DNA from: Nocardioidaceae bacterium SCSIO 66511
GTDB lineage: Bacteria > Actinomycetota > Actinomycetes > Propionibacteriales > Nocardioidaceae
Length of the DNA stretch: 64,000 nucleotides
Direction of reading: 5' to 3'
NCBI GenBank assembly: GCA_023100825.1
Contig: CP095846.1
Span: 1,178,001 to 1,242,000, forward strand
The notes below the pieces were generated by a model that was not told where the DNA came from, did no database searches, and worked only from the letters and a program-made list of their open reading frames with translations. Positions 14,633-51,758 of the stretch are shown here, piece after piece. How positions within the stretch are numbered: position 1 is the first letter of the stretch; every line of letters starts with the position of its first letter. The translations under genes were made by a program, and so were the position numbers.

Positions 14633-14684
14633 TCTGGCGGGTCCGATCCGCGGGATGTTCGGTCTCGCTTCCTGGGACCGCCTC

Positions 14685-14747
14685 GCTGACTCGTCGATCC
14701 CGCAGATCGAGACTGACGAGTCAGCAGTGCAGGAGCGACGAGTCAGC
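14685..14747. repeat. CGCTGACTCGTC palindromic element at the end of the 14743 gene
   Basis: GCTGACTCGTC (14685-14695) is followed by two inverted copies, GACGAGTCAGC at 14715-14725 and 14737-14747. The last copy contains the TGA stop of the 14743 gene. The arms can form two alternative 11-bp hairpins downstream of that gene, so it may act as a terminator. The same sequence recurs near 51455-51493. Confidence 0.6.
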
Positions 14748-15984
14748 GGGCGGCGCGGCGTCCTTTCAGTCGCCCGATCAGGTCGAGTTCAAGGGAGCCA
14801 TACCCGGTACTCGTCCACGGTTCGATCTCCAGAGCGAAGTAGTGCCGCGGCCGGCCGTCGTACGGGAAGTCGAGCACATCGTCGGGCATGTGACCCGCGC
14901 CGATCGCATCGGCGCAGGCGGCGCAGGCGGGTACGTCCACCCCGGCGGCCACACCGCGCCAGCTGACCGTACGCACGGCGTCACCGTGCAGCGGGTTCAG
15001 GTAGCACCGTGGTGTCGGCTCCCAGTCGCGACCGGCGATCGCTGCGTCGAGTGCCGACTCGCCGCGAGCCGTGAGCACGATGACTCCGACAGTGTCGGCA
15101 GAGGAATGCGGACCGTCGAGCAGCCTTCGCGCGATTGTGTGGTGCTCGACGGCTTGTTGCCAGGAGTCGTGTGTCTGCAGGGATGTCGTCGACTCGATGC
15201 GCTGCCCGAGTGCGGTGAGCTCGCGGCGCGCCCGCTTCTCCCGGCGCCGACGCTCGGCCACTGGAATACCCGGCAGCGACGGCAACCACCCGGGCAGTCG
15301 GGAAGGGCTCCCGGACCGGCGTGCACGGCGCAGCAGCCACCCGACGCCGACGGCCGCGAGAGCGAGCACCACGATGATTCCGATACCCAACGTGATGCCG
15401 GCGGCGCCGCTGTCCTCAGTCGTGCTCGACGGCTGACCGGACGGCTCGGCCGCCGGAGTCGACGTCTTCGGCGGCGCGGTCTGCTCACCCGACGCGTTGC
15501 TACCCTGCTCGCGACTGCCGTTCTGCCCGGCGTCACGGTCGGGCTTGTTGAGTCGCTTGTACACCTTGCGCGCTTTGCCCCCGGCAGTCAGGCGCGCGGT
15601 GTCGACGACCTGCTGCGCGATGTCCTTCGGGCTACGCAGCCTGGCCGACTCCGTTGCGTAGAAGGGGGTCTGAACCTTGCCGAAGGAGTACCCAACGACC
15701 CGAAGACCGCTGCCGCTTCCGTCGACGCCGATGTACGTGCCGCGGGTTGCGACGTCCTTGCGTATCGATGCGAACAGCGCCTCGATGTCGCCCTTGAACC
15801 GGGGATGGTTGCCGGGGACCTTGATCAACGCGACTTTGACCGGCGGGCGATGACCGGCGACCGCCTTCTCGAGGCGTCGCTCGACCCGCGAGTTGAACTT
15901 GTCGCGCAGGCCAGGGGAGATCCAGACCCCGTCCTGGTTCAGCTGGTGTTTGATCCGCTTCAGGGTCTTGTCGTTGATCCTCAA
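14743..15984 (-). CDS. Paralogous membrane protein 4: N-terminal sensor-like domain, one helix, Cx5H/CxxC domain
   Basis: A 413-residue protein that I cannot assign to a named family. Residues about 1-150 form an alpha/beta domain opening DGVWISPGLR. A Gly/Ser/Pro/Thr-rich linker leads to one transmembrane helix (about 193-216) followed by RRARR, so by the positive-inside rule the C-terminus is cytoplasmic. The C-terminal domain carries CYLNPLHG (near 325), VPACAAC (near 352) and EPWTSTGYGSLELDLIGRL. It is homologous to the 16190, 17302 and 17934 genes. The TTG at 15984 is preferred because it aligns with the start of the 16190 protein (both read LKRI...DGVW.SP) and GAGG precedes it. There is no signal peptide, although the N-terminal domain seems to lie outside. 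Confidence 0.8.
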   Translation of the reverse strand: MRINDKTLKRIKHQLNQDGVWISPGLRDKFNSRVERRLEKAVAGHRPPVKVALIKVPGNHPRFKGDIEALFASIRKDVATRGTYIGVDGSGSGLRVVGYSFGKVQTPFYATESARLRSPKDIAQQVVDTARLTAGGKARKVYKRLNKPDRDAGQNGSREQGSNASGEQTAPPKTSTPAAEPSGQPSSTTEDSGAAGITLGIGIIVVLALAAVGVGWLLRRARRSGSPSRLPGWLPSLPGIPVAERRRREKRARRELTALGQRIESTTSLQTHDSWQQAVEHHTIARRLLDGPHSSADTVGVIVLTARGESALDAAIAGRDWEPTPRCYLNPLHGDAVRTVSWRGVAAGVDVPACAACADAIGAGHMPDDVLDFPYDGRPRHYFALEIEPWTSTGYGSLELDLIGRLKGRRAAR

Positions 15985-24128: not shown

Positions 24129-25230
24129 GGTGTTCGCCGGTCGCTACGAGTTCGTGGAGCCGATCGGGCACGGCGGCATGGGAACGGTCTGGATCGTGTG
24201 GGACATCCGCGACCGGACCCACCGCGCGGCAAAGCTTCTGCGCCAGGCCGACGCGGGTTCGCTGATCCGCTTCGTACGTGAGCAGTCGGTGCGTATCGAC
24301 CACGATCATCTCGTCACCCCACGCGGCTGGTCCGGCGAGGACGACCGCGTGCTGTTCACCATGGACCTCGTACGCGGGGGCTCGGTGCACACGTTGCTCG
24401 GTGATCACGGTGCGCTGCCCTCGGCCTGGGCCGCGACGTTGTTCGACCAGCTGTTGTTGGCGCTTGACGCAGTACACGGTGCCGGGCTCGTTCACCGCGA
24501 CATCAAGCCCGCGAACCTGCTTCTGGAGCCGACCGGCAGATCGCATCCGCAGCTCCGGCTCGGCGACTTCGGGGTTGCCGTCGCGTTGAACGAGCCGAGG
24601 CTCACCCAGGCCGCGACGGTCCTGGGCACGCCGGGCTATCGGGCTCCGGAGCAGATGGCCGGAGCAGATCCGCATCCCGCGCAGGACATCTGGGCCGCCG
24701 GGGTCGTGCTCGCCGAGATGCTGAGCGGTCGTCGGCCGCCCGTCGACGCCGAGGCCGTCCCGCGTACGCCGCCGGCCGGGGTCGACCCGACCTTGTGGAA
24801 GCTCGCGTGCGTACTGGCCGATCCCGATCCGCAGCGGCGTCCTCCGTCGGCGGCAGAGGTACGCGGCGTACTCGCGACAACGGGGTTCGTCGCAGCCGAC
24901 GGAGTTGCTCCGGATGCCGCCGATGCCGACATCGAGGTACTCGAGCACATCGAGGTGCCGGCCGAGAACCGTTCCGGGCCGACGCCCGACGCACTGCCAG
25001 TACGGGAGGGGGCCGGGTCAGTGCGATCGACTCCGGACCTCGTCGGGTCGAGTCAGTCGCCCGTGCCGCCGCGGCCCGAGGCACAGGCTGCGCGGCCAGA
25101 GACGGCGTCGAGTGCGCCGGCGGATGAGGCCGAAGCCGAATCGGGTTCCAAGGCGGCGATGCTGGGTTGGTTGGCGATTCTGGTCGGAGTCGCCCTGGTC
25201 GTCGCGGCCGGCTGGATCGTCATCCGCTGA
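24121..25230 (+). CDS. Membrane-anchored Ser/Thr protein kinase (Hanks type)
   Basis: A 369-residue kinase. The glycine loop is GHGGMGTVW (17-25), the ATP lysine is K38 in RAAKLL, the catalytic loop is HRDIKPANLLL (D127), the Mg loop is DFG (149-151), and GTPGYRAPEQMAG is the activation/APE segment, so all catalytic residues are present. After the kinase domain (about 265) comes a Pro/Ala/Glu-rich linker and a single C-terminal helix (about 346-369) with almost nothing outside. It therefore has no extracellular sensor such as PASTA repeats and must sense from within or through a partner. The ATG overlaps the HTH gene by 8 nt. Its stop codon forms part of a repeated intergenic element. Confidence 0.92.
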   Translation: MGEVFAGRYEFVEPIGHGGMGTVWIVWDIRDRTHRAAKLLRQADAGSLIRFVREQSVRIDHDHLVTPRGWSGEDDRVLFTMDLVRGGSVHTLLGDHGALPSAWAATLFDQLLLALDAVHGAGLVHRDIKPANLLLEPTGRSHPQLRLGDFGVAVALNEPRLTQAATVLGTPGYRAPEQMAGADPHPAQDIWAAGVVLAEMLSGRRPPVDAEAVPRTPPAGVDPTLWKLACVLADPDPQRRPPSAAEVRGVLATTGFVAADGVAPDAADADIEVLEHIEVPAENRSGPTPDALPVREGAGSVRSTPDLVGSSQSPVPPRPEAQAARPETASSAPADEAEAESGSKAAMLGWLAILVGVALVVAAGWIVIR

Positions 25231-25357
25231 CCCGCGACAACCTCCACGCCGAGACGCGAGAACCATCACGCCGAGACGCGGGTTCCGATGAGCGGAACCC
25301 GCGTCTCGGCAGGGCATTACTCACGTGTCAGCGGGGTGTGACTCACGTGTCAGCGGG
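25225..25357. repeat. Compound palindromic element between convergent kinase and VWA genes, with terminator hairpin
   Basis: The perfect 17-bp stem formed by 25270-25286 and 25294-25310 (loop 7 nt) is a strong bidirectional terminator candidate. It is flanked by a direct repeat of CGCCGAGACGCG (25247-25258, 25269-25280) and by two copies of ACTCACGTGTCAGCGGG (25319-25335, 25341-25357). Both flanking genes end inside the element: the kinase as CGCTGACCCGCGAC and the VWA gene as CGCTGACACGTGAG on the other strand. Confidence 0.7.
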
Positions 25358-27311
25358 TGCGTGGTCGACGGGCGAGGGCGACAGCGGTGACTCCGCCGGC
25401 GATCACGACCAGGCCGACGCCGCCGAGCAGTAGCGCGAGCATCGGGAGGTCCGACCCGGAGTCCGAGCTGGAGTTCGACGCGAGGTCGGCGTCGTTGCCG
25501 TCGCCGCTCGAACCGGCGACCTCGTCACCACGGTCGTCGCTGTCTCCGCCGTCGAGGGCCTCCGTTACGGAGGTGTACGTACTGTCGGCGCTCGGTGTGC
25601 TCAGCCCATCCGATTCCTCGTACTCGGGTGCTCCTTCACCGGCTTCGCCGAAGCGCTTGACGGTGAGGTCGTACGGCACCAGTACGCCGTCCTTCATCAG
25701 ACTGAGGTTGACCTCGACGTACTGGTAGCCCGGCAGGATCGACCCGGCGAGCTCGGTCTCGTTCGCGTCACGGTTGAGATAACGGACGGTCGGTGTCATG
25801 GCGCCGGTACGCCAGTGGGCATCGTCGGCGTACTCCATGTTGCCGAAGGCCGTTTCGGTCCAGCTCGCCGGCTCATCGCCCGACATGGTGACTGCCGACT
25901 TGGACCGCGTGGATCCGTAGATCTGCGCTCCGAGACCACTCCACGCCCCGCTGTTCTGCAATGCCACCTCGGGCAGCTCGGCGTCGATCTGCACCTGGAG
26001 CCGCTGTCCCCAGTCGAGAGGTACTGCGAAGACCTGAGTCTCGCCCGTCTGGATGTCGAGGGAGTACGTGCCGTCGTCGAGCACGGGTGCGTTGGCGAGG
26101 CTGGTGCCCGCGACGGTGTCGTCTTCGGCCTTGCCCGGAGACATCGGCGACCAGCGAGAGCCCTCATCGGCCGGGGGAAGGTCGTCATTGCCGCTGTCGG
26201 CCAACGGCGGCTCCTCGTACCCGAAGATCTCGATCGGCGTGTGTGCGATCTCTCCCGTGGTGTTCTCGATCGCCACTGTGTAGTAGCGCGCGTTCATGCA
26301 CTCGTCGTTATCGCGGTTCCATTCGGTATTGGCGCTGGTGGCGAGCAGCGGCCGGTCGGCGCCGATGCTGTTGGCGTAGGAGTTGTCCGAGCCGCACAAC
26401 GTGTCGGAGCTCTGTGCGTAGACCATCGCGGTGAACCCGCTGCCCAGGCTGTCCGTGCTCGATCGCGCTGTCACGCCGACGTGGAAGGTCGACTTCGGGT
26501 CGCGTCGCTCGAACCGGTAGTACCTGATCTCGTCGTCGCGTGGCAGTTTGTCGAGATACTGCGTGCTGGTGTCGAGCGTCGGTGCGTTGCCCGGGCGGTC
26601 GGATCCCTTGACCGGCTCGCCGGTCAGGTCGAACGGGCGGAATGCTCGGGTGGAGACGGTGTCGATGCTGCGGGTCAGCGACTCGGCGTCGTCGGCGTCG
26701 TAGTACGTACCGTTGCCCGCGTCTGCGATGCAGGTGAGCTTCCTGCGGGTCTTCGCATCGACGTCGAGACCGACGACATCGATGCGAAGGTCGATGCCCT
26801 CCTTGCTGAGCGACTTGGCGACCTTGCACGGGTTCGGTTTGCAGGTGGGCTCGCCGTCGGAGACGAGGACGATCGTACGTTTGCCTTCGGAGCCGAGGTC
26901 TTTGGCTGCTTCCTCGAGCGCGTATCCAATGGGGGTCTCGCCGAGCGGCTGGTAGTCGTCGACGGCCGCATGCAGGTCGTCGCGATTACCGGTGTCCGGC
27001 GAGACGACCTCCTGCGAGTCGGTGCACGCGCCTTGCCCGCTGTCGATCTTGGCGCCGTACACGCGCAGGCCGACCTGCGCGGACTCGGGCAGATCGTCGA
27101 TCACGCTGTCGAGTGACTGTTTGGCGGCTTTGATCTTCGTACCGTCCTGGGCGCGTTCCTTCATCGATCCGGACGCGTCGAGTACGAGCTGCATGCGGTA
27201 GTCGCCACTGTCGTCGGCGGCGTCATCGGCCTGCGACGGAACTGTGCTCAGCGTGATGCCGAGCATGCTCGTTGCGGCCACGATCGCGATACCGGGTGCG
27301 GTCCAGCGCAT
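25350..27311 (-). CDS. Secreted, membrane-anchored von Willebrand factor A domain protein
   Basis: A 653-residue protein with a signal peptide (about 1-28), a VWA domain (about 38-220) and a C-terminal helix plus RRPRTR tail (about 620-653). The metal-ion site is D45-A-S47-G-S49, and TPIGYALEEAA and VLVSDGEPTCKPNPC carry the other two MIDAS loops, so metal-dependent protein binding is likely. Cysteines in the VWA domain (TDSQ/CKPNPCK region) suggest disulfides outside the cell. The middle part (about 230-560) is beta-rich and unrecognised; an acidic Asp/Ser-rich stalk precedes the membrane helix. The ATG at 27311 is chosen because AAGGGGG lies 9 nt upstream and the signal peptide starts there. 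Confidence 0.86.
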   Translation of the reverse strand: MRWTAPGIAIVAATSMLGITLSTVPSQADDAADDSGDYRMQLVLDASGSMKERAQDGTKIKAAKQSLDSVIDDLPESAQVGLRVYGAKIDSGQGACTDSQEVVSPDTGNRDDLHAAVDDYQPLGETPIGYALEEAAKDLGSEGKRTIVLVSDGEPTCKPNPCKVAKSLSKEGIDLRIDVVGLDVDAKTRRKLTCIADAGNGTYYDADDAESLTRSIDTVSTRAFRPFDLTGEPVKGSDRPGNAPTLDTSTQYLDKLPRDDEIRYYRFERRDPKSTFHVGVTARSSTDSLGSGFTAMVYAQSSDTLCGSDNSYANSIGADRPLLATSANTEWNRDNDECMNARYYTVAIENTTGEIAHTPIEIFGYEEPPLADSGNDDLPPADEGSRWSPMSPGKAEDDTVAGTSLANAPVLDDGTYSLDIQTGETQVFAVPLDWGQRLQVQIDAELPEVALQNSGAWSGLGAQIYGSTRSKSAVTMSGDEPASWTETAFGNMEYADDAHWRTGAMTPTVRYLNRDANETELAGSILPGYQYVEVNLSLMKDGVLVPYDLTVKRFGEAGEGAPEYEESDGLSTPSADSTYTSVTEALDGGDSDDRGDEVAGSSGDGNDADLASNSSSDSGSDLPMLALLLGGVGLVVIAGGVTAVALARRPRTR

Positions 27312-30571: not shown

Positions 30572-32119
30572 ATGCTTCCGACCTTGCGCGACGTACTCGC
30601 GATGCCGTCTTTCACCGAGGCCGATGCCGAGGTGCTCACGGGCGACCCGAATGCTCTGGCGGTGCGGTGGGTGCACTCGTCCGAGGTGTACGAGATGGGC
30701 GGGCTGCTCTCGGGCGGCGAGGTGCTGCTCACGACCGGGCTCGGCTTACACGGTCGCACTGCCGAGCAGCTGACGTCGTACGTCGACCTGCTCGCCGATG
30801 CCGGTTGCGTGGCCGTCGCGCTCGAGATCGGCCGATCCTTCTTCGAGGCGCCGGCCGAGATGGTCGCGGCGGCTGAGCGCAGGGGGATCGCGTTCGTGAC
30901 CCTCGGCGCGATCGTGCCGTTCGAGCGGATGGTGGAGGACTTCCACAGTCTGCTCCTGCACCGGCGGGGTACGTCGCCGCGCGGCTCCGAGCCCGTCTGG
31001 CAGGAGCTCCTTGGCCTCGTCGTCGCCGGCCAGGGCATGACGTCGCTGCTCAATGCGGTCGCGCGCCTGGCCGGGTGCGCCGTCGAGCTGGTCGATCTCG
31101 ACGGCATGGTTGTCGAACGTAGCCGCGGTCTCGCGGGGGCGACCTCGGGTGAGTCGACTGTCGTGGACGTACGCGGGCCGACCGGAGCGCTCGGCCGGCT
31201 CGTCCTGTCCGGTCGGCCGACGGCTCGGCGTACGACCGTCGCCGCGCGCGCCGCTGTTGCAGTCGCCCTCGAACTGGCGCGTCACCCCGACCACGGTCAT
31301 CGTCCGTCGCTCGCGCAAGCGGTGATCACCGACCTCGCCGGCGGGGTGGTCGTCTCGCACGCAGATGTGCTCGAGCGGATGACCATGGCCGGATGGGTCG
31401 GCGGCGGGGATGAGCACGCGATCGTGGCGGCGGTCGACGTCGACCAGCGGACGCCCGTGCGCGAGCTCGTTCCGGTCGTCGAAGCGGCGGTCGTTGAGTC
31501 GCTCGGCAGTTGTCTGGTCGGCTCGGTCGGCCACCACGTGATCGTGGTGGCTCGCGGTTGGCGGCAGGCGCTGCCCGCGCGCGTACGATCGGTTTTCGCC
31601 GACGCCTACGACTCGATGTGCGCGAACGCGCCCGATGCTGCCCTCCGGGTGCTGGGCATCGCGGCGCCGATCGATGACCTCGCCGACCTGCCCGGCGCCC
31701 TCGAGGCGGCGCGCGACGTCGTACAGATCGCTCGGCGGTTCGGCACGCGTACTGGTGTGCTGCTCGCGCGCGATGTCGGCGCACAGCGGTTGTTGGCCTC
31801 GCTCGACGCGTCTGTCATGTCGTCATTCGTCGCCGAGCAGCTCGGCGCCTTGATCGCCTTCGACGCGGCGCACTCGGCAGATCTCGTGCGTACGCTCGAT
31901 GCGTACCTCGCCGGCGGCGGCAGCAAGACGCGTACCGCGCTCGCGCTCGGGATCCGCCGGCAGTCGTTGTACGCGCGGCTGGAGCGCATTGCGAAGCTGC
32001 TCGGCGCCGACCTCGACGACCCCGCGCAGACGGTCTCGCTCGGCCTCGCGCTGACGGCCTGGCGGATGCGTACCGGTCTCGACCCGCAGGCCGCGTTCGA
32101 CCGCCCCACCCCCCGCTGA
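30572..32119 (+). CDS. PucR-family transcriptional regulator
   Basis: A 515-residue regulator. The N-terminal PucR domain (about 1-125, opening LPTLRDVLAMPSF) is followed by a GGDEF-like fold of the CdaR type (about 240-370) and a C-terminal helix-turn-helix (about 445-500; KTRTALALGIRRQSLYARLERI). PucR proteins sense purine-pathway or related metabolites and usually control an adjacent catabolic operon; here the cytosine permease/deaminase pair is divergent, so it is the likely target. AAGGAC precedes the ATG at 30572. The gene ends in a repeated palindromic element. Confidence 0.9.
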   Translation: MLPTLRDVLAMPSFTEADAEVLTGDPNALAVRWVHSSEVYEMGGLLSGGEVLLTTGLGLHGRTAEQLTSYVDLLADAGCVAVALEIGRSFFEAPAEMVAAAERRGIAFVTLGAIVPFERMVEDFHSLLLHRRGTSPRGSEPVWQELLGLVVAGQGMTSLLNAVARLAGCAVELVDLDGMVVERSRGLAGATSGESTVVDVRGPTGALGRLVLSGRPTARRTTVAARAAVAVALELARHPDHGHRPSLAQAVITDLAGGVVVSHADVLERMTMAGWVGGGDEHAIVAAVDVDQRTPVRELVPVVEAAVVESLGSCLVGSVGHHVIVVARGWRQALPARVRSVFADAYDSMCANAPDAALRVLGIAAPIDDLADLPGALEAARDVVQIARRFGTRTGVLLARDVGAQRLLASLDASVMSSFVAEQLGALIAFDAAHSADLVRTLDAYLAGGGSKTRTALALGIRRQSLYARLERIAKLLGADLDDPAQTVSLGLALTAWRMRTGLDPQAAFDRPTPR

Positions 32120-32200
32120 CACGCGAGAAGTTCCGTGCCCAGACGCGAGTTCTACCTATTGGAAGTCGCGTGTCAGCGTGGTGGTTCTCGCGTGTCAGCG
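32114..32200. repeat. CGCTGACACGCGAGAA inverted element between convergent pucR-like and acetyltransferase genes
   Basis: CGCTGACACGCGAGAA (32114-32129) and its exact 16-bp inverse (32185-32200) bracket the gap; a third inverted partial copy, CGCGTGTCAGCG, is at 32167-32178. The TGA in each outer arm is the stop codon of the flanking gene (32117-32119 and 32197-32195). It can fold into a long hairpin and may terminate both transcripts. Confidence 0.7.
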
Positions 32201-40244: not shown

Positions 40245-40712
40245 TCAGGCGACCGGCTCGGGCTCCTTGGCGAACACATGGGTGCGGTAGGCCCAGAACC
40301 GGAAGGCCGTGCCCAGGACGAGACCGAAGCCGTTGGCGGCGATGTTGTCGGCCATCGGCGAGGTGAACCCGAGCAGGTAGTGCGATGCGCCGAGGCAGGC
40401 AACGGAGATGCCCATACCGACGAGGTTGAAGAACACGAACAGCGCGACCTCGCGGTGCTGGTTGTCGATCGAGCGGCCGCGCCAGGTCCAGTGCCGGTTG
40501 CCGAGGTAGGTCACCACCATGGCGACGGCGACCGAGATGATCTTGGCCGTGAGCGGTTTGTGCTCGAGTAGGCCGGGATCGCCGGCGTACCGCAGCAGGT
40601 TGAACACGCCGATATCGGTGATGAAGCCGGCCAGGCCGACGAGGCCGAAGACGACGATCTCGGAGCGGAGCCCGGTCGGCTTCGGCGGAGCAATGGTGGA
40701 GGTCCCCGACAC
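40245..40712 (-). CDS. GtrA-family membrane protein
   Basis: A 155-residue protein with four helices (FGLVGLAGFITDIGVFNLL; AKIISVAVAMVVTYLGNRHWTW; the VALFVFFNLVGMGISVACL helix; and a last one ending FRFWAYRTHVF), the standard GtrA pattern. GtrA proteins are thought to flip or help transfer polyprenyl-linked sugars for wall and surface glycans. The GTG at 40712 is chosen over a much longer frame because a TAGGGT box ends 7 nt upstream. It converges on the cyclase gene with 5 nt between stops. Confidence 0.88.
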   Translation of the reverse strand: MSGTSTIAPPKPTGLRSEIVVFGLVGLAGFITDIGVFNLLRYAGDPGLLEHKPLTAKIISVAVAMVVTYLGNRHWTWRGRSIDNQHREVALFVFFNLVGMGISVACLGASHYLLGFTSPMADNIAANGFGLVLGTAFRFWAYRTHVFAKEPEPVA

Positions 40713-40719
40713 GTCATCG

Positions 40720-40738: not shown

Positions 40739-40806
40739 GCCCGCTGGGCGTGACGTACGAGTGCGAAACGCCCGCGTGTCCCCGCTCGTACGTCGGGCTC
40801 ACGGGG
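40739..40806 (+). repeat. 68-nt element upstream of purK (copy 1)
   Basis: Aligns without gaps to 42016-42083 upstream of purE, 57 of 68 positions identical. The most conserved parts are GCCCGCTGG at the left, the GCGAAACGCC-GCGTGTC centre, and GCTCACGGGG at the right end. In this copy GACGTACGAG and CTCGTACGTC form a 10-bp inverted repeat that is not preserved in copy 2. It ends 14 nt before the purK -10 box. Confidence 0.75.
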
Positions 40807-40820
40807 TGAGCTCGGTCGTC

Positions 40821-40826
40821 TAGGGT
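40821..40826 (+). promoter_or_regulatory. Candidate -10 box of purK
   Basis: TAGGGT, 7 nt before the ATG at 40834; supports that ATG over the GTG 9 nt upstream. Confidence 0.5.
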
Positions 40827-40833
40827 GGCGGCG

Positions 40834-41997
40834 ATGAGCGAACTCAGCAGCCCGATCGACGCGCCGACCCTTGCAGTCATCGGCGGCGGCCAGCTCGCCC
40901 GGATGATGGAGCAGGCCGCGGTGGGTCTCGGTGTGCCGATCCGGCTGCTCGCCGAGGGGCCCGAAGTGAGCGCCGCCCAAGTCGCCCGGGATCCGTACGT
41001 CGGCGACTACCGCGACCTGGAGACGCTTCGCGAGGTCGTCGCCGGCTGTGCCGTGGTGACCTTCGACCACGAGCACGTACCCCCCGACCATCTGCGCACA
41101 CTCGACGCCGAGGGCCACGCGTGCCGGCCCGGCCCGCATGCCTTGCTGTACGCACAGGACAAGTACGAGATGCGCGCTCGTCTGTCCGAGCTCGATGCGC
41201 CGTGTCCGAGGTGGGCACTCGTCGACGATGTCGCGGCGGTGGAGAAGTTCGCGGCCGCCCGCGACGGGTTCCCGGTCGTACTGAAGACGACGCGCGGTGG
41301 GTACGACGGCAAGGGCGTCTGGGTCGTTGACCGCCCGGACGACGCCGTCGAGGCATTCGCGTCCGGAGCGCGGATCCTCGCCGAGGAGCGGGTCGACTTC
41401 AGACGCGAGCTGTCTGCGTTGGTCGCGCGTTCGCCTTCGGGGCAGATCGCCGCGTACCCGATCGTCGAGTCACGTCAACGCGACGGAATCTGCCACGAGG
41501 TCATCGCGCCCGCACCCGAGATCGACCACGATCTGGCCGTCGACGCGCAGCAGCTGGCGATCCGGATCGCCAGCGAACTCGACGTCGTCGGCATCCTGGC
41601 GGTCGAGCTGTTCGAGACGGCCGACGGCGAGGTGCTCGTCAACGAGCTCGCGATGCGTCCGCACAACACGGGGCACTGGAGCATCGACGGTGCGATCACC
41701 AGCCAGTTCGAGAACCACCTGCGGGCGGTGCTCGACCTGCCGCTCGGCGACCCGGCTCCGCGCGCGCCATGGACGGTCATGGTCAACGTGCTCGGCGGCG
41801 CGGTCGGCCGGTTGTACGACGGCTATCCCCATGTGCTGGCGCGTGACCCGCGGGTGCGCGTACATCTGTACGGCAAGTCCGTACGCCCCGGCCGCAAGGT
41901 CGGCCATGTGACGACGTACGGCGATGATCTCGACGAGGTGCTCGCCAGGGCGAGGCATGCGGCCGGTTGGTTCGCGGGAGAGGTGGACGACGAATGA
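40834..41997 (+). CDS. purK: N5-carboxyaminoimidazole ribonucleotide synthase
   Basis: A 387-residue ATP-grasp enzyme that carboxylates aminoimidazole ribonucleotide with bicarbonate in purine synthesis. It opens with [60 protein letters not shown] and [18 protein letters not shown] are PurK motifs in order. The product is handed to PurE, encoded 97 nt downstream. Between them lies the second copy of the element found before purK. Confidence 0.95.
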
Positions 41998-42015
41998 ACG
42001 CTCGGCAGGCAACAG

Positions 42016-42083
42016 GCCCGCTGGCCATGACGTTCGGGCGCGAAACGCCGGCGTGTCGCCGCGCGTACGCCCCGCTCACGGGG
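42016..42083 (+). repeat. 68-nt element upstream of purE (copy 2)
   Basis: The partner of 40739-40806. It occupies most of the purK-purE gap and ends 11 nt before the purE ATG, so unlike copy 1 it could lie within an mRNA leader. Confidence 0.75.
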
Positions 42084-42829: not shown

Positions 42830-45800
42830 GTGAGCTACACCCCCTCCAGCGACCGTACGTCAGGTCGCTTTCTCTATGCCCTCATCGCGTTCGTACTGAC
42901 CATCGGACTGACGGCGCTCGCGCCCGCACCGGCGAGTGGGTCGGTCGCTGCGGCAAGTTCCGCGTCACCGGCGGCGTCGAACACGAAATCCGTCGCGAAG
43001 TGTGCGAAGAAGAACGCATATCTCGCCCAGTACTACCGCGGTCGGAAACCGAAGGGAAAACCGGTCGCAGCGCGCTGTGAGAAGCGAGTGAATGCGACGT
43101 ACGCGAAGGGCAAGCGACCGAAGGGTGTCAACGTCGGGCCGAACAACTTCGCGGTGAAGTGGACGACGATCGAGTCGGGTAAAGCGCGCAGGCTCGACTT
43201 CAGAGCCGTCGCCGACAACTGGGTGACCATCCGGGTCGACGGCAAGAAGGTCGTCGGCACGCATAAGGCCGGCAAGTACATCAGCAAGGTGCGCTCGCTG
43301 CGCAAGGGCAAGCACACGGTGCAGTTCCGCTACACGAAGAAGGCGGGTGCCGGATACATCAAGGGCGAGTACGTCAAGGCGCCCGACCGGACGACGCCGC
43401 GCCGGCCGAGGGCGCTCGAGGCGAAGGCCGGCGATGCATCGGTCGCGCTGAGGTGGAAGGGCAGCAACGAGGTAGACCTTCGCGGGTACCGAGTCTTCCG
43501 CAACGGCAAGTCATTGGGCGAGGTCGGATCGACCTCGTTCACAGACACGGGATTGAAGAACGCGAAGCGTTATCGCTACGTCGTACGCTCGGTCGACTAC
43601 CGCGGCAACACCTCGGCGCCGAGCAACACGGCCGGCGCGACGCCGAAGGACCGGACCGCCCCGGCCCGGCCGACACTGCTCGAGCCCAAGGCCGGCGACG
43701 GCGAGGTCGACTTGGAGTGGAAGCCCAATACGGAGTCCGACCTGGACCAATACCTCGTCTACCGCGATGGCGACAAGGTCGTCGATGTGTCGGCCGACAG
43801 CACCACCCACACTGACACCGGGCTCGTGAACGGGCAGACGTACGCGTACCAGATCGCCGCCGTCGACAAGGCCGGGAACAAGTCGGCGAGGTCGGCGACG
43901 AAGTCGGCCACACCGCAGGAACCGGCTGCGCCGCCGGCTCCGACCGGATTTACGGTCACCGAGCAGGGCGACTCGCTGGTGCTCGACTGGGACGACGTGA
44001 CGGGCGACGGCATCGTCTACGACGTGTATCGCTCGCAGCAGCAGCCCGTCGACCTCACCGAGACCTACCGGAGCGGCTTGAGCGAGTCGACGTACACCGA
44101 CACCGAAACCGTGAACGGCACGACCTACTTCTACCGGGTGGTCGCGGTCGACCGACGTGACAAGCGCTCCGAACCGTCGGAGGTGCGAAGCGGCATCGCT
44201 GGCGACCAGGAGTCGCCGGTCGCTCCCACCGACCTCGCGGCGAGCGGAGGCGACGAACGCATCGACCTCAGTTGGAGCGCGAGCGCATCCGACGACGTCA
44301 ATGGCTACCGGATCTATCGCTCCACGAGCGCCGATGTCGTCATCGCCCCGGTCAACCTGGTCACCGGTGTCGGCAACGTCACCGAGTTCGCCGACGACTC
44401 GGTGGAGAACGACACGACGTACTACTACGCCGTGATTGCCATCGATCGGGCCGGCAACGCCTCGCCGTCCAGCACAGTCGCGTCCGCGACGCCGACCGAC
44501 CTGGCCTCTCCGGATACGCCGACTGCTCTGACGGCGACGGGCGCCGACGGCCTCGTCGAGCTCGCTTGGGAGGCACCCGCGGACGCTGACGTCGCCGGTT
44601 ACCGGGTGTACCGGGGCGAGACCGCGGACGTAGCCAGCGGGCCGTCGGCGACTCCGATCTCAGGTGACGCTCTCGTGCCGACACCTGCGTACACCGATAC
44701 CGAGGTCGAGAACGACAGCACGTACTACTACGTCGTGGTTGCGGTCGACGGCCACGGCAATGCGTCGGATCCGTCGGAGGCCGCGAACGCCACTCCGACG
44801 GACCTGACGCCGCCGGCAGCACCCGTCGGTCTCACGGCGACACCTGCCGACGGTGAGGTCGCACTCGACTGGGACGACAGCGGCGATGCCGACCTCGACC
44901 ACTTCGCGGTGTACCGCGCGACCGACGTCAACGACGTACTCGAAGGCGACCCGATCGCAGAGTCGGACACCTCGGATTACGCAGACTCCGATGTCGAGAA
45001 CGGCACGACGTACTACTACGCCGTGGTGGCTGTCGACGCACACGGCAACGCGTCATCGGCCTCGGAAACGGTCGAGGCAACGCCCGTCGACGAGAGCGCG
45101 CCGGATGCCCCGAGCGGTCTCTCGGCGACAGCCTCGACCAGTGCGATCGACCTGGCGTGGGACGGGAACGACGAGTCGGACCTCGCCGGCTACAACGTGT
45201 TCCGCGCGCAGGTTCCGGAGGTGCCGACGGACGGTGACCCGCTCAACGGCGAGCTGCTCACCGACGCACAGTTCAGCGACGACACCGCAGCACCGGGCAC
45301 GCAGTACTTCTACGTCGTGGTGGCCGTCGATGACGACGACAACGCGTCGGCTGCGTCCGATACGGCGAGCGCGACGATCGAGGCTCCCGAGCCGGTGCAC
45401 GAGAAGTACAGCTTCACCACCACAGCGGACGCGCAGGTGCCGGACGGTTACACGAAGAACGACGGGTCGGCGTGGACGGATGCCGCCGGACTCGGCTGGG
45501 TCACGCAGGCGAGCCTCGCAGACGACGAGCATGAGCCGCTCGACCTGACGAAGAACACCCGCGTACGCAACGCGCGGGCCGGCGTGAGCGAGTTGCAACG
45601 ACGCCTGATCCACCTGCAGTACGGGGATGTCGCGGAGCCCGACTCCACCACCACGCAGACCGCAGGTGCGTTCGAGCGATCCGTTCCGGACGGCTGGTAC
45701 AAGGCGACAGTGTCCGTCGGCGACCAGCCGGGTGGTCCGGGGTACGACAGTCAGCACACGATCAACGTCGAGGGCGAGACCGCGATCGACGGGTTCCAGG

Positions 45801-48800
45801 GGAGTGCGGCCAAGGAGTTCGCGACGGGCACGGTGACCGTAGAGGTGACCGACGGCCGGCTGACCGTCGACGCGATCGGCGGTACGAACACCAAGCTGAA
45901 CTACCTCGAGCTCGACGCCACCGATGAGCCCGACCCACAGGCGCCGGATGTGCACGAGAAGTTCAGCTTCACCACGACAGCGGACGCGCAGGTGCCGGAC
46001 GGTTACACGAAGAACGACGGGTCGGCGTGGACGGATGCCGCCGGGGTCGGCTGGGTGGAGGAGACCAGTCTCGACGATGCGGAGCACACGCCGCTCGACC
46101 TGACCAAGAACACTCGCGTACGTGATCCGCGGGCGGGTGTGAGTGAATTGCAGCGACGGGTGATCCACCTGCACTACGGCGACATCGTGCCTCCGGGTAC
46201 GAACGGCACCGCGACGCCGGGAGCCTTCGAGGTGGAACTGCCAGATGGCTGGTACTCGGTCAAGGCCAGCGTCGGAGACGAGCCGGGTGGTGCCAAGACC
46301 GGCTGCCCAGCACCGTGTTACGACAGCGTGCATCGGGTCAACGTCGAGGGTCAGACCGCGATCGGCGACTTCCAGGCGACCGCGGACCATGAGTACGAGA
46401 CCGGTACGGCGACGGTCCAGGTCACCGACGGGCGGCTCACCGTCGACTCGATCGGCGGCAACAACACCAAGCTGAACTACCTCGAGATCGACAGCACCGA
46501 TGAGCCGGCCGAAGCCGACTTCCACCAGAAGGTCAGGTTCGCCGACGAGGCGAGTGCCCCGCCCGCCGGATACCTGAAGGACTTCGGGCAGGCGTACGGC
46601 GAGCGTACGGGAGCGGACCAGGGCGAGGGTCTTTCGTACGGCTGGCTCGGGCTCGACTCGGATGATCCGGTCAGCCTGGTCGGCAACGGACGCAACAGGC
46701 TTACGGAGGCGAATCCGCCGAGCGGGGTTCCGGAGCTGCGTGCCGGGTTCATGCACATGCAGTTGCCGGAGAACGCCGCAAGCGGTGTCGACATCCCTGG
46801 TTACTGGGAGATGGCGGTGCCCGACGGCACCTACGACGTCGAAGTCTCGGTCGGCGATCCCGGTACCGCGATCGACAGCGAGCACTGGCTCAACCTCGAA
46901 GGACAGAACGCGATTGCGGCATTTGTACCGACCGGCGGTGCCGGATCGGCGACGCATCACACGACCGCGCAGCGTACGGTCACCGTCTCCGACGGCGAGC
47001 TGACCGTCTCGCCGCAGGGCGGTACGAACACGAAGATCAACTGGGTGACGATCGACAGCGTTGCGGGTTCGACCGATCGTCCGTCGGTTCGTGCGACGAC
47101 GCCGAAGAACCTCGCGACCGATGTCGACCCGAAGTCGACGAGTGTGGTGAGCGATCTCGATCTCGTCGACAGCGGGGTGGACCCGAGTTCGCTCGACGGC
47201 GGATCAGTCCTGCTCACGAAGGTGTCCGATGGTACGGCGGTGGACGGCACTGCGGTCACCAGCGGCGGTGCTGACACGGTCAGCTTCGCGCCGAGTGATG
47301 CTCTCGAGTCGAACACGCTCTACCGCTTCGACGTCACCGACGGGGTCGAGGACGTCGACGGCATCGCCTTCCTTCCCTACTCGATGGTCTTCGAGACCGG
47401 CGAGGTGCAAGGCGGTGGCGGCCCGATCGCCTTCGACAAGTCGGACTCGGGCGCACCGACGGGCGGGCAGTACACGTCTGTTGTCAAGGGGCCGGACGGC
47501 AAGCTCTACGCCGGCTCGATCACCGGTGAGATCTACCGCTTCAACATCGAGTCCGACGGCACGCTGTCGAACCGGCAGACGATCAACACGGTCAAGAGCT
47601 TCTCGAACAGCGCGGCGAGCGGCGATACGTACCGCAAGGGCTTCCGCACGGTGATCGGCCTCGCGTTCGATCCGGCGTCGACGGCGCAGAACCCGATCCT
47701 CTGGATCAGCGACAATGCGCCATACCTGGGTACGAGCGACGTACCCGACTCGTCCGGGCGGATTGCCAAGCTCACCGGGCCGAATCTGGAGACGTACACG
47801 GCGATGGTCGAGCACCTGCCGCGATCGGTCAAGGACCACGAGACGAACTCGCTCGCATTCGGTCCCGACGGCGCGCTGTACTTCAACCAGGGCGCGAACA
47901 ACGCGATGGGCGCGCCGGACGGTGCATGGGCGAACCGCGCGGAGCGGTTGCTGTCCGCGGCGGTGCTGCGGCTCGACCCGGCCAAGCTGCCGTCCGTCCT
48001 GCCACTCGACGCCGGCACGGGAAACGCCGGTGACTACGACCCGTTCGCCGCGAACGCGCCGCTGACTGTCTACGGGCACGGTGTGCGCAACGCGTACGAC
48101 CTGGTGTGGCACAGCAACGGCCATCTGTACGTACCGACCAACGGGTCTGCGGCCGGCGGCAACGTACCTGCCGTACCGGACGACCTGCCAGCCGTTTGCG
48201 CGCAGCGTCCGGACGGCGGCTACACGGGCCCCAAGGTCGCGGGCGTCGACAACAACCCGGCCGAGACCGACTACGTGTTCGACGTCAAGAAGGGGCAGTA
48301 CTACGGGCACCCGAACCCGTCGCGCTGCGAGTACGTACTGAACAACGGCAACCCGACATCGGGCACGGATCCGTTCGAGAACAGCAAGTATCCGGTCGGT
48401 ACGCAGGCCGATCCGAACTACGCGCTGTCCGACGTGTACGACGCCGGCTCGCATGCGAGTGCGAACGGAGTCATCGAATACCAGGGTGGAGCGTTCGGTG
48501 GAGCGCTGGACGGCAAGCTGCTCTACATCCGCTACAGCAGCGGCCAGGACATCGCCACCTTCGATGTCGCTGCGAACGGCAAGCTGTCGAACCGGACGTT
48601 CGGACGCACCGGCTTCACCGGATTCAACCAGCCGCTCGACCTCACCGAGGACGTCGCGACCGGCAACATCTACGTCACCGAGCTCAGCGGCAACAGCAGG
48701 ATCGTGCTGCTGAAGCCACAGGGCGGTGGCGGCGGGCCGGTTCCGAAGGCGACCGATCGGCTCATCTTCAGCGGGCCGACCGGCTCGACGAGTGACCCGC

Positions 48801-51430
48801 GCGACGCCGTCGTCGAGAACGACGGTTCGGAGGACCTGGTCGTCACGGGTGCTTCATTGGGCGGGGACAACGCAAACCAGTTCGCGCTGGGTTCGTCGAG
48901 CTTCCCGCAGACGGTGGAGCCTGGGGAGTCGTTGGACCTCCCGGTCACGTTCAAACCGACGAGTGTCGGCGTCAAGTCGGCGAACCTCGTACTCGCGACG
49001 AACTCTGGTCCGAAGACCGTACGACTGCGTGGCCTTGCTGCGGCGGGTCTCGGTGGCTCAGGTGAGCCGTCGCTGCAGCGGATCATGGACACGCTCGAGA
49101 TCCCGATCGACGTTGGTGACCCCGACCCGACCAATGCTTCGATGCCAAGTACACAAGGCATGATCGGCGACGAGGTCCCGGCGCAGCTGTTCAAGAAGGC
49201 GGCGTTCGATTCGCCGATCAGTGTCACGCCGATCGCCGCGTACGGGCCGCAGAACAACGACCCTGCGATCCGAGTCGGCTGGCATGAGGCGGGGAGTGCG
49301 AACGGGCTGCACGAGCAGTTCGAGGTGTCGGCCGATGATGCGCAGGGGTTGATGATCGACCCGGACGGTGAGACGACGAACATCGATCCCGGTGAGGATG
49401 CGGTCTTCGGGTTCTACTCCGAGTGGCCGTATTTCGGCGGACGTAAGGCGTACACCGAGGATGCCCTCAACACTTGGGATTCCGGCCTGCCACACCACGT
49501 TCGCGTGTATCCGTACAAGAACTCCGACGGTACGACCGAGCCCGACACGTACGTCGTAGCGACCGAGGAGGTGCCGGGCTCGCCGTTCGACAGCCAGGAC
49601 ATCGTGCTGATCGTCGGCAACGTCGAGCCGTACGTACCGGAGGCGGGCGATGCCGTACTCGAGACCGAAAACCTCGACGGTGTGCCATACGACGACCGGC
49701 TCGCGTTCAGCCGGATCCAGAACCGGGCCGACGGCAACCAGAAGACGCATGATGTCTCGACGGTGCGGATCTCCAACACCGGTTCGGAGTCCATGCAGGT
49801 GACGGATCTGAACATCGTCGGCAACTTCGAGATCACCAATGCACCGGGAGCTCCGTTCGACGTACCCGCCGGCGACCACGAGGACGTCGAGGTTAAGTTC
49901 ACCGCAACCGGCGGTGACGTCAACACGGGCTCGCTGAACATCGTGTCGAACGCCGGTACGAACGGCAACGAGTTCGTTGCACTCGCCGGCTTCTGGCAGA
50001 GCCAGAGTGAGGGCGGGCAGGAGCCGAGCGTTGCCGAGATGATGCGGGTGTTCGGGTACGGGACCAACGTCCCGAGCAACTTGAACGGCGATGGTCTGGT
50101 CGAGGCCGTCGGCGACGAGGTGCTCTCGCCCTACTGGCGAGTGGCGGACGACAGCTCGGACGTGACCGTGCGCCAGCTGTCCGCGTTCCACACCTACCCG
50201 GGCGGCGCGACCGTGAAGTGGTTCGAGAAGGACGGCGGCGGCACGCACAACCTCACCGGGCATGACACCGCGTACGCCCAGTCGATCCTGCCGCCTCGCA
50301 ACGGTGGTGGCCCTGTGCCGGCGTCGTTCGACACCTCGGAGGTGTTCGGGTTCGCGGTGGACGGCGAGTCGAGCGATCCCACGAAGAACAACCAGGCGGC
50401 CGACCAGGCGAACGGGTGCCCGGGTCCGTGCGGACACCACGTGCGGTTCTTCCCGGTCAAGGACCGCTCCGGTGACGTCGTCGCCAACTCGTACCTGATG
50501 GTGATGGACTACTCGGGTATCAACTACGACTACAACGACAACGTCTACTTGATCGAGAACATCACGCCCGAACTGCTGATCAAGCCGAAGGGGGTGTCCG
50601 CCCTGGCCGAGGACGGCAAGGTCACGCTGACCTGGTCGCCGACCGGTCAGGAGGGTGTGAGCTACCGTGTCTGGCGCAGCACCACGCCGGACGTACCGGC
50701 CGATGGCGCGCATCTCGTCAGTGGCGCCGATGCGTTGACGGAGCAGGAGTTCGTCGACGAGGACGTCGCGAACGGTACGACGTACTACTACGTGGTCCGC
50801 GCGGTGATCCCCGGGGAGTCGAACTCCGCGTCGACACCGGTGGTCTCGGCGACACCCAATCCAGTGGACGACTTCGCGGCGAAGGTGAACTTTCAGAACC
50901 AGTCTGCCCCGTTGCCCGCGGGTTACCTGAAGGACTTCGGACAGGCGTACGGGCCGCGTACCGGCGCCGACCAGGGCGAGGGCAGATCGTACGGCTGGCT
51001 CGGTGAGGTGAACGGCCAGCCTGTCGACCTGTCCGTCGGAGGTACGACCGGGCCGGGGAACGGTCGGGATCGAAACCTCGAGTCGGACCAGCGACTCGAC
51101 ACCTTCCTGCACATGCAGGGCGATGACGTACCGAACTTCAACGGCACACCCGTCGCGGGCAAGTGGGAGATCGCGGTTCCGGACGGTACGTACTCGGTCA
51201 CGGTTGCGGCAGGCGACGGCGCGAGCAACACCGATCCCGAGATTCACACGCTCAATGTCGAAGGAGAGAACGCGATCGACGGGTTCGTACCGAGCGGTGC
51301 GGCCGGCTTCGCCTCGCACCACAAGACGGCAACGGTCGAGGTGGACGTCACCGACGGGAGGCTGGCGATCGACGCGATCGGCGGCACGAACACCAAGATC
51401 GACTACGTCGACATCGCGGCCACCAACTGA
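42830..51430 (+). CDS. Giant secreted multidomain protein: PA14-like, FN3 repeats, malectin-like domains, sugar-dehydrogenase-type propeller
   Basis: A 2866-residue exported protein. In order: signal peptide (hydrophobic LYALIAFVLTIGLTALAPA, about 15-35); PA14-like domain (about 58-184); seven fibronectin type III repeats (about 185-855); two nearly identical malectin-like domains (857-1040, 1042-1224); a third, different one (1231-1412, QKVRFADEASAPPAGYLKDFG); an SbsA/Big_5-like Ig domain (1419-1523); a glucose/sorbosone-dehydrogenase-type beta-propeller (about 1532-1964, HETNSLAFGPDGALYF, YGHGVRNAYDLVW); two ASPM/Hydin-like Ig domains (near 1974-2074 and 2290-2390); an eighth FN3 (about 2588-2677); and a fourth malectin-like domain to the end. 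There is no LPXTG signal or C-terminal helix, so it is probably released or held non-covalently. Carbohydrate binding or oxidation is a family-based guess. GTG start with GGAGG 7 nt upstream. Confidence 0.88.
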   Translation: MSYTPSSDRTSGRFLYALIAFVLTIGLTALAPAPASGSVAAASSASPAASNTKSVAKCAKKNAYLAQYYRGRKPKGKPVAARCEKRVNATYAKGKRPKGVNVGPNNFAVKWTTIESGKARRLDFRAVADNWVTIRVDGKKVVGTHKAGKYISKVRSLRKGKHTVQFRYTKKAGAGYIKGEYVKAPDRTTPRRPRALEAKAGDASVALRWKGSNEVDLRGYRVFRNGKSLGEVGSTSFTDTGLKNAKRYRYVVRSVDYRGNTSAPSNTAGATPKDRTAPARPTLLEPKAGDGEVDLEWKPNTESDLDQYLVYRDGDKVVDVSADSTTHTDTGLVNGQTYAYQIAAVDKAGNKSARSATKSATPQEPAAPPAPTGFTVTEQGDSLVLDWDDVTGDGIVYDVYRSQQQPVDLTETYRSGLSESTYTDTETVNGTTYFYRVVAVDRRDKRSEPSEVRSGIAGDQESPVAPTDLAASGGDERIDLSWSASASDDVNGYRIYRSTSADVVIAPVNLVTGVGNVTEFADDSVENDTTYYYAVIAIDRAGNASPSSTVASATPTDLASPDTPTALTATGADGLVELAWEAPADADVAGYRVYRGETADVASGPSATPISGDALVPTPAYTDTEVENDSTYYYVVVAVDGHGNASDPSEAANATPTDLTPPAAPVGLTATPADGEVALDWDDSGDADLDHFAVYRATDVNDVLEGDPIAESDTSDYADSDVENGTTYYYAVVAVDAHGNASSASETVEATPVDESAPDAPSGLSATASTSAIDLAWDGNDESDLAGYNVFRAQVPEVPTDGDPLNGELLTDAQFSDDTAAPGTQYFYVVVAVDDDDNASAASDTASATIEAPEPVHEKYSFTTTADAQVPDGYTKNDGSAWTDAAGLGWVTQASLADDEHEPLDLTKNTRVRNARAGVSELQRRLIHLQYGDVAEPDSTTTQTAGAFERSVPDGWYKATVSVGDQPGGPGYDSQHTINVEGETAIDGFQGSAAKEFATGTVTVEVTDGRLTVDAIGGTNTKLNYLELDATDEPDPQAPDVHEKFSFTTTADAQVPDGYTKNDGSAWTDAAGVGWVEETSLDDAEHTPLDLTKNTRVRDPRAGVSELQRRVIHLHYGDIVPPGTNGTATPGAFEVELPDGWYSVKASVGDEPGGAKTGCPAPCYDSVHRVNVEGQTAIGDFQATADHEYETGTATVQVTDGRLTVDSIGGNNTKLNYLEIDSTDEPAEADFHQKVRFADEASAPPAGYLKDFGQAYGERTGADQGEGLSYGWLGLDSDDPVSLVGNGRNRLTEANPPSGVPELRAGFMHMQLPENAASGVDIPGYWEMAVPDGTYDVEVSVGDPGTAIDSEHWLNLEGQNAIAAFVPTGGAGSATHHTTAQRTVTVSDGELTVSPQGGTNTKINWVTIDSVAGSTDRPSVRATTPKNLATDVDPKSTSVVSDLDLVDSGVDPSSLDGGSVLLTKVSDGTAVDGTAVTSGGADTVSFAPSDALESNTLYRFDVTDGVEDVDGIAFLPYSMVFETGEVQGGGGPIAFDKSDSGAPTGGQYTSVVKGPDGKLYAGSITGEIYRFNIESDGTLSNRQTINTVKSFSNSAASGDTYRKGFRTVIGLAFDPASTAQNPILWISDNAPYLGTSDVPDSSGRIAKLTGPNLETYTAMVEHLPRSVKDHETNSLAFGPDGALYFNQGANNAMGAPDGAWANRAERLLSAAVLRLDPAKLPSVLPLDAGTGNAGDYDPFAANAPLTVYGHGVRNAYDLVWHSNGHLYVPTNGSAAGGNVPAVPDDLPAVCAQRPDGGYTGPKVAGVDNNPAETDYVFDVKKGQYYGHPNPSRCEYVLNNGNPTSGTDPFENSKYPVGTQADPNYALSDVYDAGSHASANGVIEYQGGAFGGALDGKLLYIRYSSGQDIATFDVAANGKLSNRTFGRTGFTGFNQPLDLTEDVATGNIYVTELSGNSRIVLLKPQGGGGGPVPKATDRLIFSGPTGSTSDPRDAVVENDGSEDLVVTGASLGGDNANQFALGSSSFPQTVEPGESLDLPVTFKPTSVGVKSANLVLATNSGPKTVRLRGLAAAGLGGSGEPSLQRIMDTLEIPIDVGDPDPTNASMPSTQGMIGDEVPAQLFKKAAFDSPISVTPIAAYGPQNNDPAIRVGWHEAGSANGLHEQFEVSADDAQGLMIDPDGETTNIDPGEDAVFGFYSEWPYFGGRKAYTEDALNTWDSGLPHHVRVYPYKNSDGTTEPDTYVVATEEVPGSPFDSQDIVLIVGNVEPYVPEAGDAVLETENLDGVPYDDRLAFSRIQNRADGNQKTHDVSTVRISNTGSESMQVTDLNIVGNFEITNAPGAPFDVPAGDHEDVEVKFTATGGDVNTGSLNIVSNAGTNGNEFVALAGFWQSQSEGGQEPSVAEMMRVFGYGTNVPSNLNGDGLVEAVGDEVLSPYWRVADDSSDVTVRQLSAFHTYPGGATVKWFEKDGGGTHNLTGHDTAYAQSILPPRNGGGPVPASFDTSEVFGFAVDGESSDPTKNNQAADQANGCPGPCGHHVRFFPVKDRSGDVVANSYLMVMDYSGINYDYNDNVYLIENITPELLIKPKGVSALAEDGKVTLTWSPTGQEGVSYRVWRSTTPDVPADGAHLVSGADALTEQEFVDEDVANGTTYYYVVRAVIPGESNSASTPVVSATPNPVDDFAAKVNFQNQSAPLPAGYLKDFGQAYGPRTGADQGEGRSYGWLGEVNGQPVDLSVGGTTGPGNGRDRNLESDQRLDTFLHMQGDDVPNFNGTPVAGKWEIAVPDGTYSVTVAAGDGASNTDPEIHTLNVEGENAIDGFVPSGAAGFASHHKTATVEVDVTDGRLAIDAIGGTNTKIDYVDIAATN
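45401..46510 (+). repeat. Internal 555-bp duplication in the giant gene
   Basis: The units begin at 45401 and 45956, 555 bp (185 codons) apart. Their first ~85 bp are almost identical at the DNA level, differing at only a few bases, and similarity then falls. The second unit has a small insertion holding two cysteines (CPAPC). This points to recent duplication or ongoing gene conversion of one malectin-like domain. Confidence 0.8.
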
Positions 51431-51436
51431 GCGCTC

Positions 51437-51493
51437 ACTCGTCACTCCTGCCCGGCTGACTCGTCGGAGTTGCCGGGGGAGTGACGAGTCAGC
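51437..51493. repeat. CGCTGACTCGTC palindromic element between convergent giant and small-membrane-protein genes
   Basis: ACTCGTCACTCC (51437-51448) pairs with GGAGTGACGAGT (51478-51489); alternatively GCTGACTCGTC (51455-51465) pairs with GACGAGTCAGC (51483-51493). The TCA at 51489-51491 is the stop codon of the small gene on the minus strand. Same motif as at 14685-14747; may act as terminator. Confidence 0.65.
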
Positions 51494-51758
51494 GGATGAG
51501 GAAGGGGAGCCCGACCAGAGCGGGGATCGTGCCGGCGAGCAGCCACAACGACAGCGGCGAGACCTTGTGGATGAGCCTGGCGCCGACCATCACCAGTACG
51601 CCGACGATGAGCCCCATGACCCATAGACCCCAGGCGTTGCCGGGCTTGTCGCGGTCCAGCATCAGCCACGCCGAGTACGACAGCGATGCCGCCAGGGCGA
51701 AGCCGAATGCGCCCAGCATGCCGGCCGCGATCCACTGCTGCACCTTGGTGATATGCAT
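51489..51758 (-). CDS. Small membrane protein, unknown
   Basis: An 89-residue protein with three predicted helices (about 11-32, 44-58 and 69-87) and little else. I recognise no family. It ends in LPFLIR with the stop inside a repeated element. It lies 27 nt downstream of the glutamate dehydrogenase stop on the same strand and has its own GGAG before the ATG, so it may be the last gene of that transcript. Confidence 0.6.
   Translation of the reverse strand: MHITKVQQWIAAGMLGAFGFALAASLSYSAWLMLDRDKPGNAWGLWVMGLIVGVLVMVGARLIHKVSPLSLWLLAGTIPALVGLPFLIR

Follow-up and report, generated by a model that had tools for sequence, protein, structure and literature searches.

Why should two near-copies of one 68-nt sequence stand on either side of a single purine gene? 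In the window analysed here (the whole stretch of DNA, 64,000 nucleotides long), one copy lies ahead of purK and the other fills the gap between purK and purE, and a sequence-only reading of the locus had offered two explanations: a shared cis-regulatory site for purine genes or a dispersed repeat that happened to land twice. In this paper, we argue for the second, with one addition. The two stretches belong to a dispersed REP-like family of extragenic palindromes, and at a probability of about 0.55, this family would act as bidirectional hairpins at transcript ends.

Two copies around purK

The locus is laid out as follows.

40245..40713, minus strand: gene for a GtrA-like membrane protein, divergent from purK (Pfam GtrA_DPMS_TM, E 9.6e-23)
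40739..40806, minus strand (family orientation): copy 1 of the palindromic element, in the spacer that separates purK from the divergent GtrA-like gene; hairpin intact; 57/68 to copy 2; R1 82.5 bits
40821..40826, plus strand: TAGGGT, probable purK -10 box, from the sequence and the congener alignment
40834..41997, plus strand: purK (Pfam ATP-grasp, preATP-grasp, and PurK_C)
42016..42083, minus strand: copy 2 of the palindromic element, filling the purK-purE gap; decayed hairpin; R1 81.4 bits
42095..42592, plus strand: purE (Pfam AIRC, E 2.4e-65)

The two copies are identical at 57 of 68 positions without a gap, and the likeness ends sharply at both borders. Elsewhere in the window, on either strand, the next-best ungapped placement of either copy reaches 39/68, which confirms the pairing; the 42/68 at which the element matches its own reverse complement is set apart from that maximum. 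The coordinates likewise bear out the reported positions, with copy 1 ending 14 bp before the TAGGGT box and copy 2 lying 18 bp past the purK stop and 11 bp ahead of the purE ATG. Apparently, purK is leaderless, its ATG falling 7 nt past the -10 box; a sigma-70 consensus search gave no match at this TAGGGT. For the GtrA-like gene, a GTG start at 40713 is likely, as sequence conservation in the congener reaches about there. Beyond purE, the window holds a single open frame of ~2,870 aa (42830-51430) in which repeated fibronectin-III-like and carbohydrate-binding-like segments can be made out by eye.

As RNA, copy 1 folds at -43.9 kcal/mol (z -5.0) and copy 2 at -33 kcal/mol (z -0.14), the latter no better than shuffled sequence, so that the hairpin reported for copy 1 and its loss from copy 2 are both real. 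In the congener, the orthologue of copy 2 is intact in the same purK-purE gap (z -5.3): copy 2 is a decayed member of the family after purK, and its orthologue still folds. The sequence-only reading had taken the lost hairpin as an argument against one conserved fold. That argument came from one decayed copy, and it is overturned by the compensatory change seen over 79 copies (below). At the congener site of copy 1, the element is absent, and the spacer is similar in length and unrelated in sequence; the purK -10 box TAGGGT is kept there and copy 1 is not. A known RNA family was rejected as an identity for the element, Rfam giving no match above gathering score in the window.

A family dispersed through the genome

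The element is an imperfect palindrome of ~67 bp, with a consensus of roughly CCCGTGAGCnnGACGTTCGnGYGGCGACACGCCGGCGTGTCGCnCnCGAACGTCnnGCYCACGGGG. Exact matches to its core, GCGAAACGCCnGCGTGTC, number four in the 4.6-Mb genome, and the near matches sit inside the same longer palindrome. A covariance model built from nine copies and used to scan the genome found at least 24 distinct places, three or four of which (L077, L078, L082, and partly L080) fall in a subfamily whose ends are the same and whose inner part is different. Besides the purK pair, then, there are at least 22 further copies, mostly beside genes unrelated to purines; the neighbours include genes for proline-tRNA ligase (prolyl-tRNA synthetase), RibF, gluconokinase, the dihydroorotate dehydrogenase electron-transfer subunit, PhoH2, an acetate/monocarboxylate symporter, SecDF, glutamine synthetase, IF-2, an amidase, and a Band 7 protein. 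The earlier reading had held that many copies unrelated to purine genes would speak for a repeat family, and its second explanation is supported by exactly such copies. Nor do copies concentrate before purine genes: the purK/purE neighbourhoods of 64 named relatives contain none (best E 0.05), and among eight further purK loci from element-bearing genomes, a convincing copy is found only in the congener, in the purK-purE gap, the other seven being without one. The purK pair is not special, ranking 10th among the 276 copy pairs of the genome. Local duplication as its origin was rejected, neighbouring copies being only slightly, and not significantly, more alike than distant ones.

How far does the family reach? 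The congener (G001) carries ~72 places and another genome (G010) at least 50, with fewer in other genomes, all of these figures being lower bounds. A survey of Nocardioidaceae gave matches in at least 42 of 197 genomes and 12 of 26 genera; as far as sampled, the family is one of the Propionibacteriales, chiefly the Nocardioidaceae. In other genera, the outer stem differs genus by genus and the central GCGACACGCCGGCGTGTCGC is retained, as it is beside a quite different outer stem in a genome from another family of the order (G037). Two palindromes of that genome (L169 and L175) combine the same 20-bp centre with another outer stem (CCCAAACTGTGGGGTTCTGG), a sign that core and arms may be exchanged separately. 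In a 198-genome phylum sample, no genome but this one had the exact central 18-mer, and the proposal that the central CGACACGCCGGCGTGTCG core might be a site widespread among actinobacteria was rejected, exact matches among those 198 genomes being confined to this one. Literature searches (not exhaustive) returned no description of this palindrome family. In contig C1 of G001, matches at 29918 and 4905674 and at 36108 and 4911864 share a constant offset of 4,875,756, the first 40 kb seemingly recurring at the contig end; the likely cause is a circular assembly left untrimmed or an extension made by the tool.

Copies at the ends of genes

Placement was scored at 84 sites (24 in this genome and 60 in the congener), with genes from a simple codon-usage caller and with orthologous pairs included, so that not all sites are independent. 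Convergent gaps hold 44 of the 84, tandem gaps 35, and divergent gaps 5; none lies inside a gene. The background rate of convergence is 10% (18 of 177 neighbouring gene pairs; Fisher p 4e-13 against 44/84). A stop codon adjoins 79 of the 84 copies, at a median of 8 bp. Of the 123 distances from a copy to a neighbouring stop codon, 121 are no more than 30 bp (again, median 8); about nine copies supply the stop codon themselves, through the TGA at element position 5-7 or its mirror. Divergent spacers add up to three times the length of convergent ones, yet the element nearly avoids them. Copy 2 occupies a typical gene-end site. Copy 1 is among the five divergent exceptions and is probably a stray copy within a divergent promoter spacer, without a purine function. 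At the 35 tandem sites of this genome and G001, the element points one way relative to the upstream gene in 25 cases and the other way in 10 (p 0.017, uncorrected for shared ancestry), and both strands fold equally.

Of 22 comparable sites, about 14 have an element in the corresponding gap of the congener. At two others (L061 and L063), the congener gap is occupied by an unrelated long palindrome; at L080 and L082, the inner part is that of a different subfamily; and at some sites, there is nothing similar. Among convergent gaps without the element, 13 of 15 contain strong hairpins (z below -3), compared with 4 of 36 divergent gaps. These gap data would fit a hairpin role at gene ends that several palindrome families could fill. 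Four other palindromes of the window, with CGCTGA...TCAGCG ends, also lie in gene-end gaps (14684-14748, 51432-51494, 25224-25359, and 32111-32200); two have GACGAGTCAGCG ends and two have CRCGTGTCAGCG ends plus an extra half repeat, and they appear to represent additional families of this type.

Paired changes in the palindrome

The covariance analysis suggested with the original reading brings out strong covariation. Across 79 aligned copies and 30 pairs, 83.5% of cells are paired, and both sides have changed in 21 pairs and 221 cells, as against 122 in shuffles; covariation is 0.225 compared with 0.116 when shuffled and 0.03-0.06 when slid, kinship among the copies making it easier to exceed the shuffles. 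The mean minimum free energy is about -48 kcal/mol, with z below -3 in 79 of 84 copies. Conserved symmetric blocks (TGRGC, ACGT, and GCGACACGCC) are separated by pairs that covary freely. One orthologous site (L065) reads GGGACGTAC/GTACGTCCC in this genome, with GTGACGTTC/GAACGTCAC as its congener counterpart; two more (L069 and L079) show several paired changes.

Is it RNA or DNA that is held to this shape? Folding at tandem sites is no stronger for the sense strand than for the antisense strand, and G-U is not favoured over A-C (43 v 38); with fold energy and G-U use alike on both strands, a constraint on sense-strand RNA was rejected, and nothing shows that an RNA rather than a DNA palindrome is constrained. 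Arm-templated repair can produce compensation in long palindromes without selection, and two pairs of orthologous copies (L064 v L179 and L076 v L260) match better when inverted in place, which suggests that arms may exchange at the level of DNA. Downstream of the elements in tandem cases, there is no U-tract (14% T), and a search for terminator-like signals at the window copies gave no match; on both counts, a canonical intrinsic terminator was rejected.

Discussion

In the reading we prefer, the copies would form long hairpins that work in both directions, ending or protecting transcripts at gene 3' ends. Their sequence would spread from one gene end to another by recombination or some mobiliser. 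Copy 2 would then be the end element after purK, decayed in this genome. The missing U-tract, the equal folding of sense and antisense strands, and the five divergent sites all count against such hairpins, as does a fold lost from copy 2 in an operon that apparently works. Hairpin terminators without a U-tract have been proposed for actinobacteria, and these resemble the element in being strong G+C-rich hairpins right after a stop codon with no T run; they differ in that many of the hairpins here are copies of one family, and termination here is putative. A more specific proposal is that of a lineage-specific, copyable terminator cassette: one family spreading between the gene ends of Nocardioidaceae, which would provide an end hairpin for both directions and, at times, the TGA stop, and would replace or be replaced by other palindromes at a given site with no RAYT-type transposase involved. 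This we advance tentatively and rate well below even odds.

The closest known kind is the REP class, and we file the element there as a REP-like family. REPs are extragenic palindromes of 21-65 bases, often between convergent genes (PMC1525189); the element, at ~67 bp, lies marginally above that range and comes in many copies with covarying pairs, extragenic, by a stop codon in 79/84 cases and convergent in 44/84. With the REP or palindromic units (BIME) of Enterobacteria and Pseudomonas, it shares short extragenic palindromes, many copies, convergent gaps, and species-specific variants; unlike them, it is a longer, almost symmetric 67 bp, hugs stop codons, belongs to another lineage, and has no RAYT in the two most closely examined genomes. 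REPIN/RAYT systems also consist of dispersed palindromes that persist over species, but the copies here are not paired REPs in the E. coli sense, and the Y1 transposase (PF01797) was found neither in this genome nor in the congener. On that absence, a REPIN/RAYT system as tested and a RAYT or IS200-like mobiliser were both rejected; among the other carrier genomes, PF01797 occurs only in G010 and G004. The uptake-signal sequences of Neisseria and Pasteurellaceae offer another parallel, one repeat being reused as the hairpin of many gene-end terminators (PMC1852404), but the element has no T-tail, far fewer copies, a much longer palindrome, and no known uptake function.

Could the family simply be looking after itself? 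The palindrome might be a selfish repeat, or one copied passively (MITE- or REPIN-like), that does nothing for the host and lies at 3' ends only because insertions elsewhere were removed or because its mobiliser targets gene ends. We regard this as possible, although distinctly less probable than transcript-end hairpins. Copy number differs between the congeners (about 24 v 72), several sites, copy 1 included, are empty or different in the congener, one pair of copies is near-identical (97%), and a compact G+C-rich genome leaves little other neutral space. What such a repeat does not lead one to expect is that most sites are common to the congener at clearly diverged flanks with the palindrome kept, or that divergent spacers are nearly avoided despite their greater total. 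Nor did the comparison show a clean empty site, a Y1/RAYT transposase in either genome, or a target-site duplication, matching flanks being no commoner than between pairs of different copies; a MITE was rejected on this last point.

We give still less credence to a site acting as DNA, in which a nucleoid, topology, or recombination protein would recognise the symmetric duplex at points where supercoils build up under converging transcription. In E. coli, gyrase, IHF, and Pol I are bound by REPs (PMC1525189), and conserved symmetric blocks split by freely covarying pairs, the lack of strand preference, and two orthologues apparently inverted in place would all suit such a site. Recognition by a protein, however, would not require complementarity to persist at the non-conserved pairs, there is no candidate protein, and equivalent gaps are filled by unrelated hairpins.

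Last, a shared purine site is scarcely credible: both copies flank purK and the congener retains copy 2, but copies dispersed by other genes and missing from purK/purE in 64 relatives make that reading fail, a purine operator was rejected on the genome-wide distribution, and the congener lacks copy 1 although it keeps the purK -10 box.

The purine switch, then, is removed as a false lead. In its place is a large palindrome family that marks gene 3' ends in an actinobacterial lineage whose transcript ends are poorly understood. Its copies are natural variants, with broken and intact orthologues of one site, for testing how transcripts end in high-G+C bacteria, and the same copies suit the testing of how hairpins spread without a known transposase.
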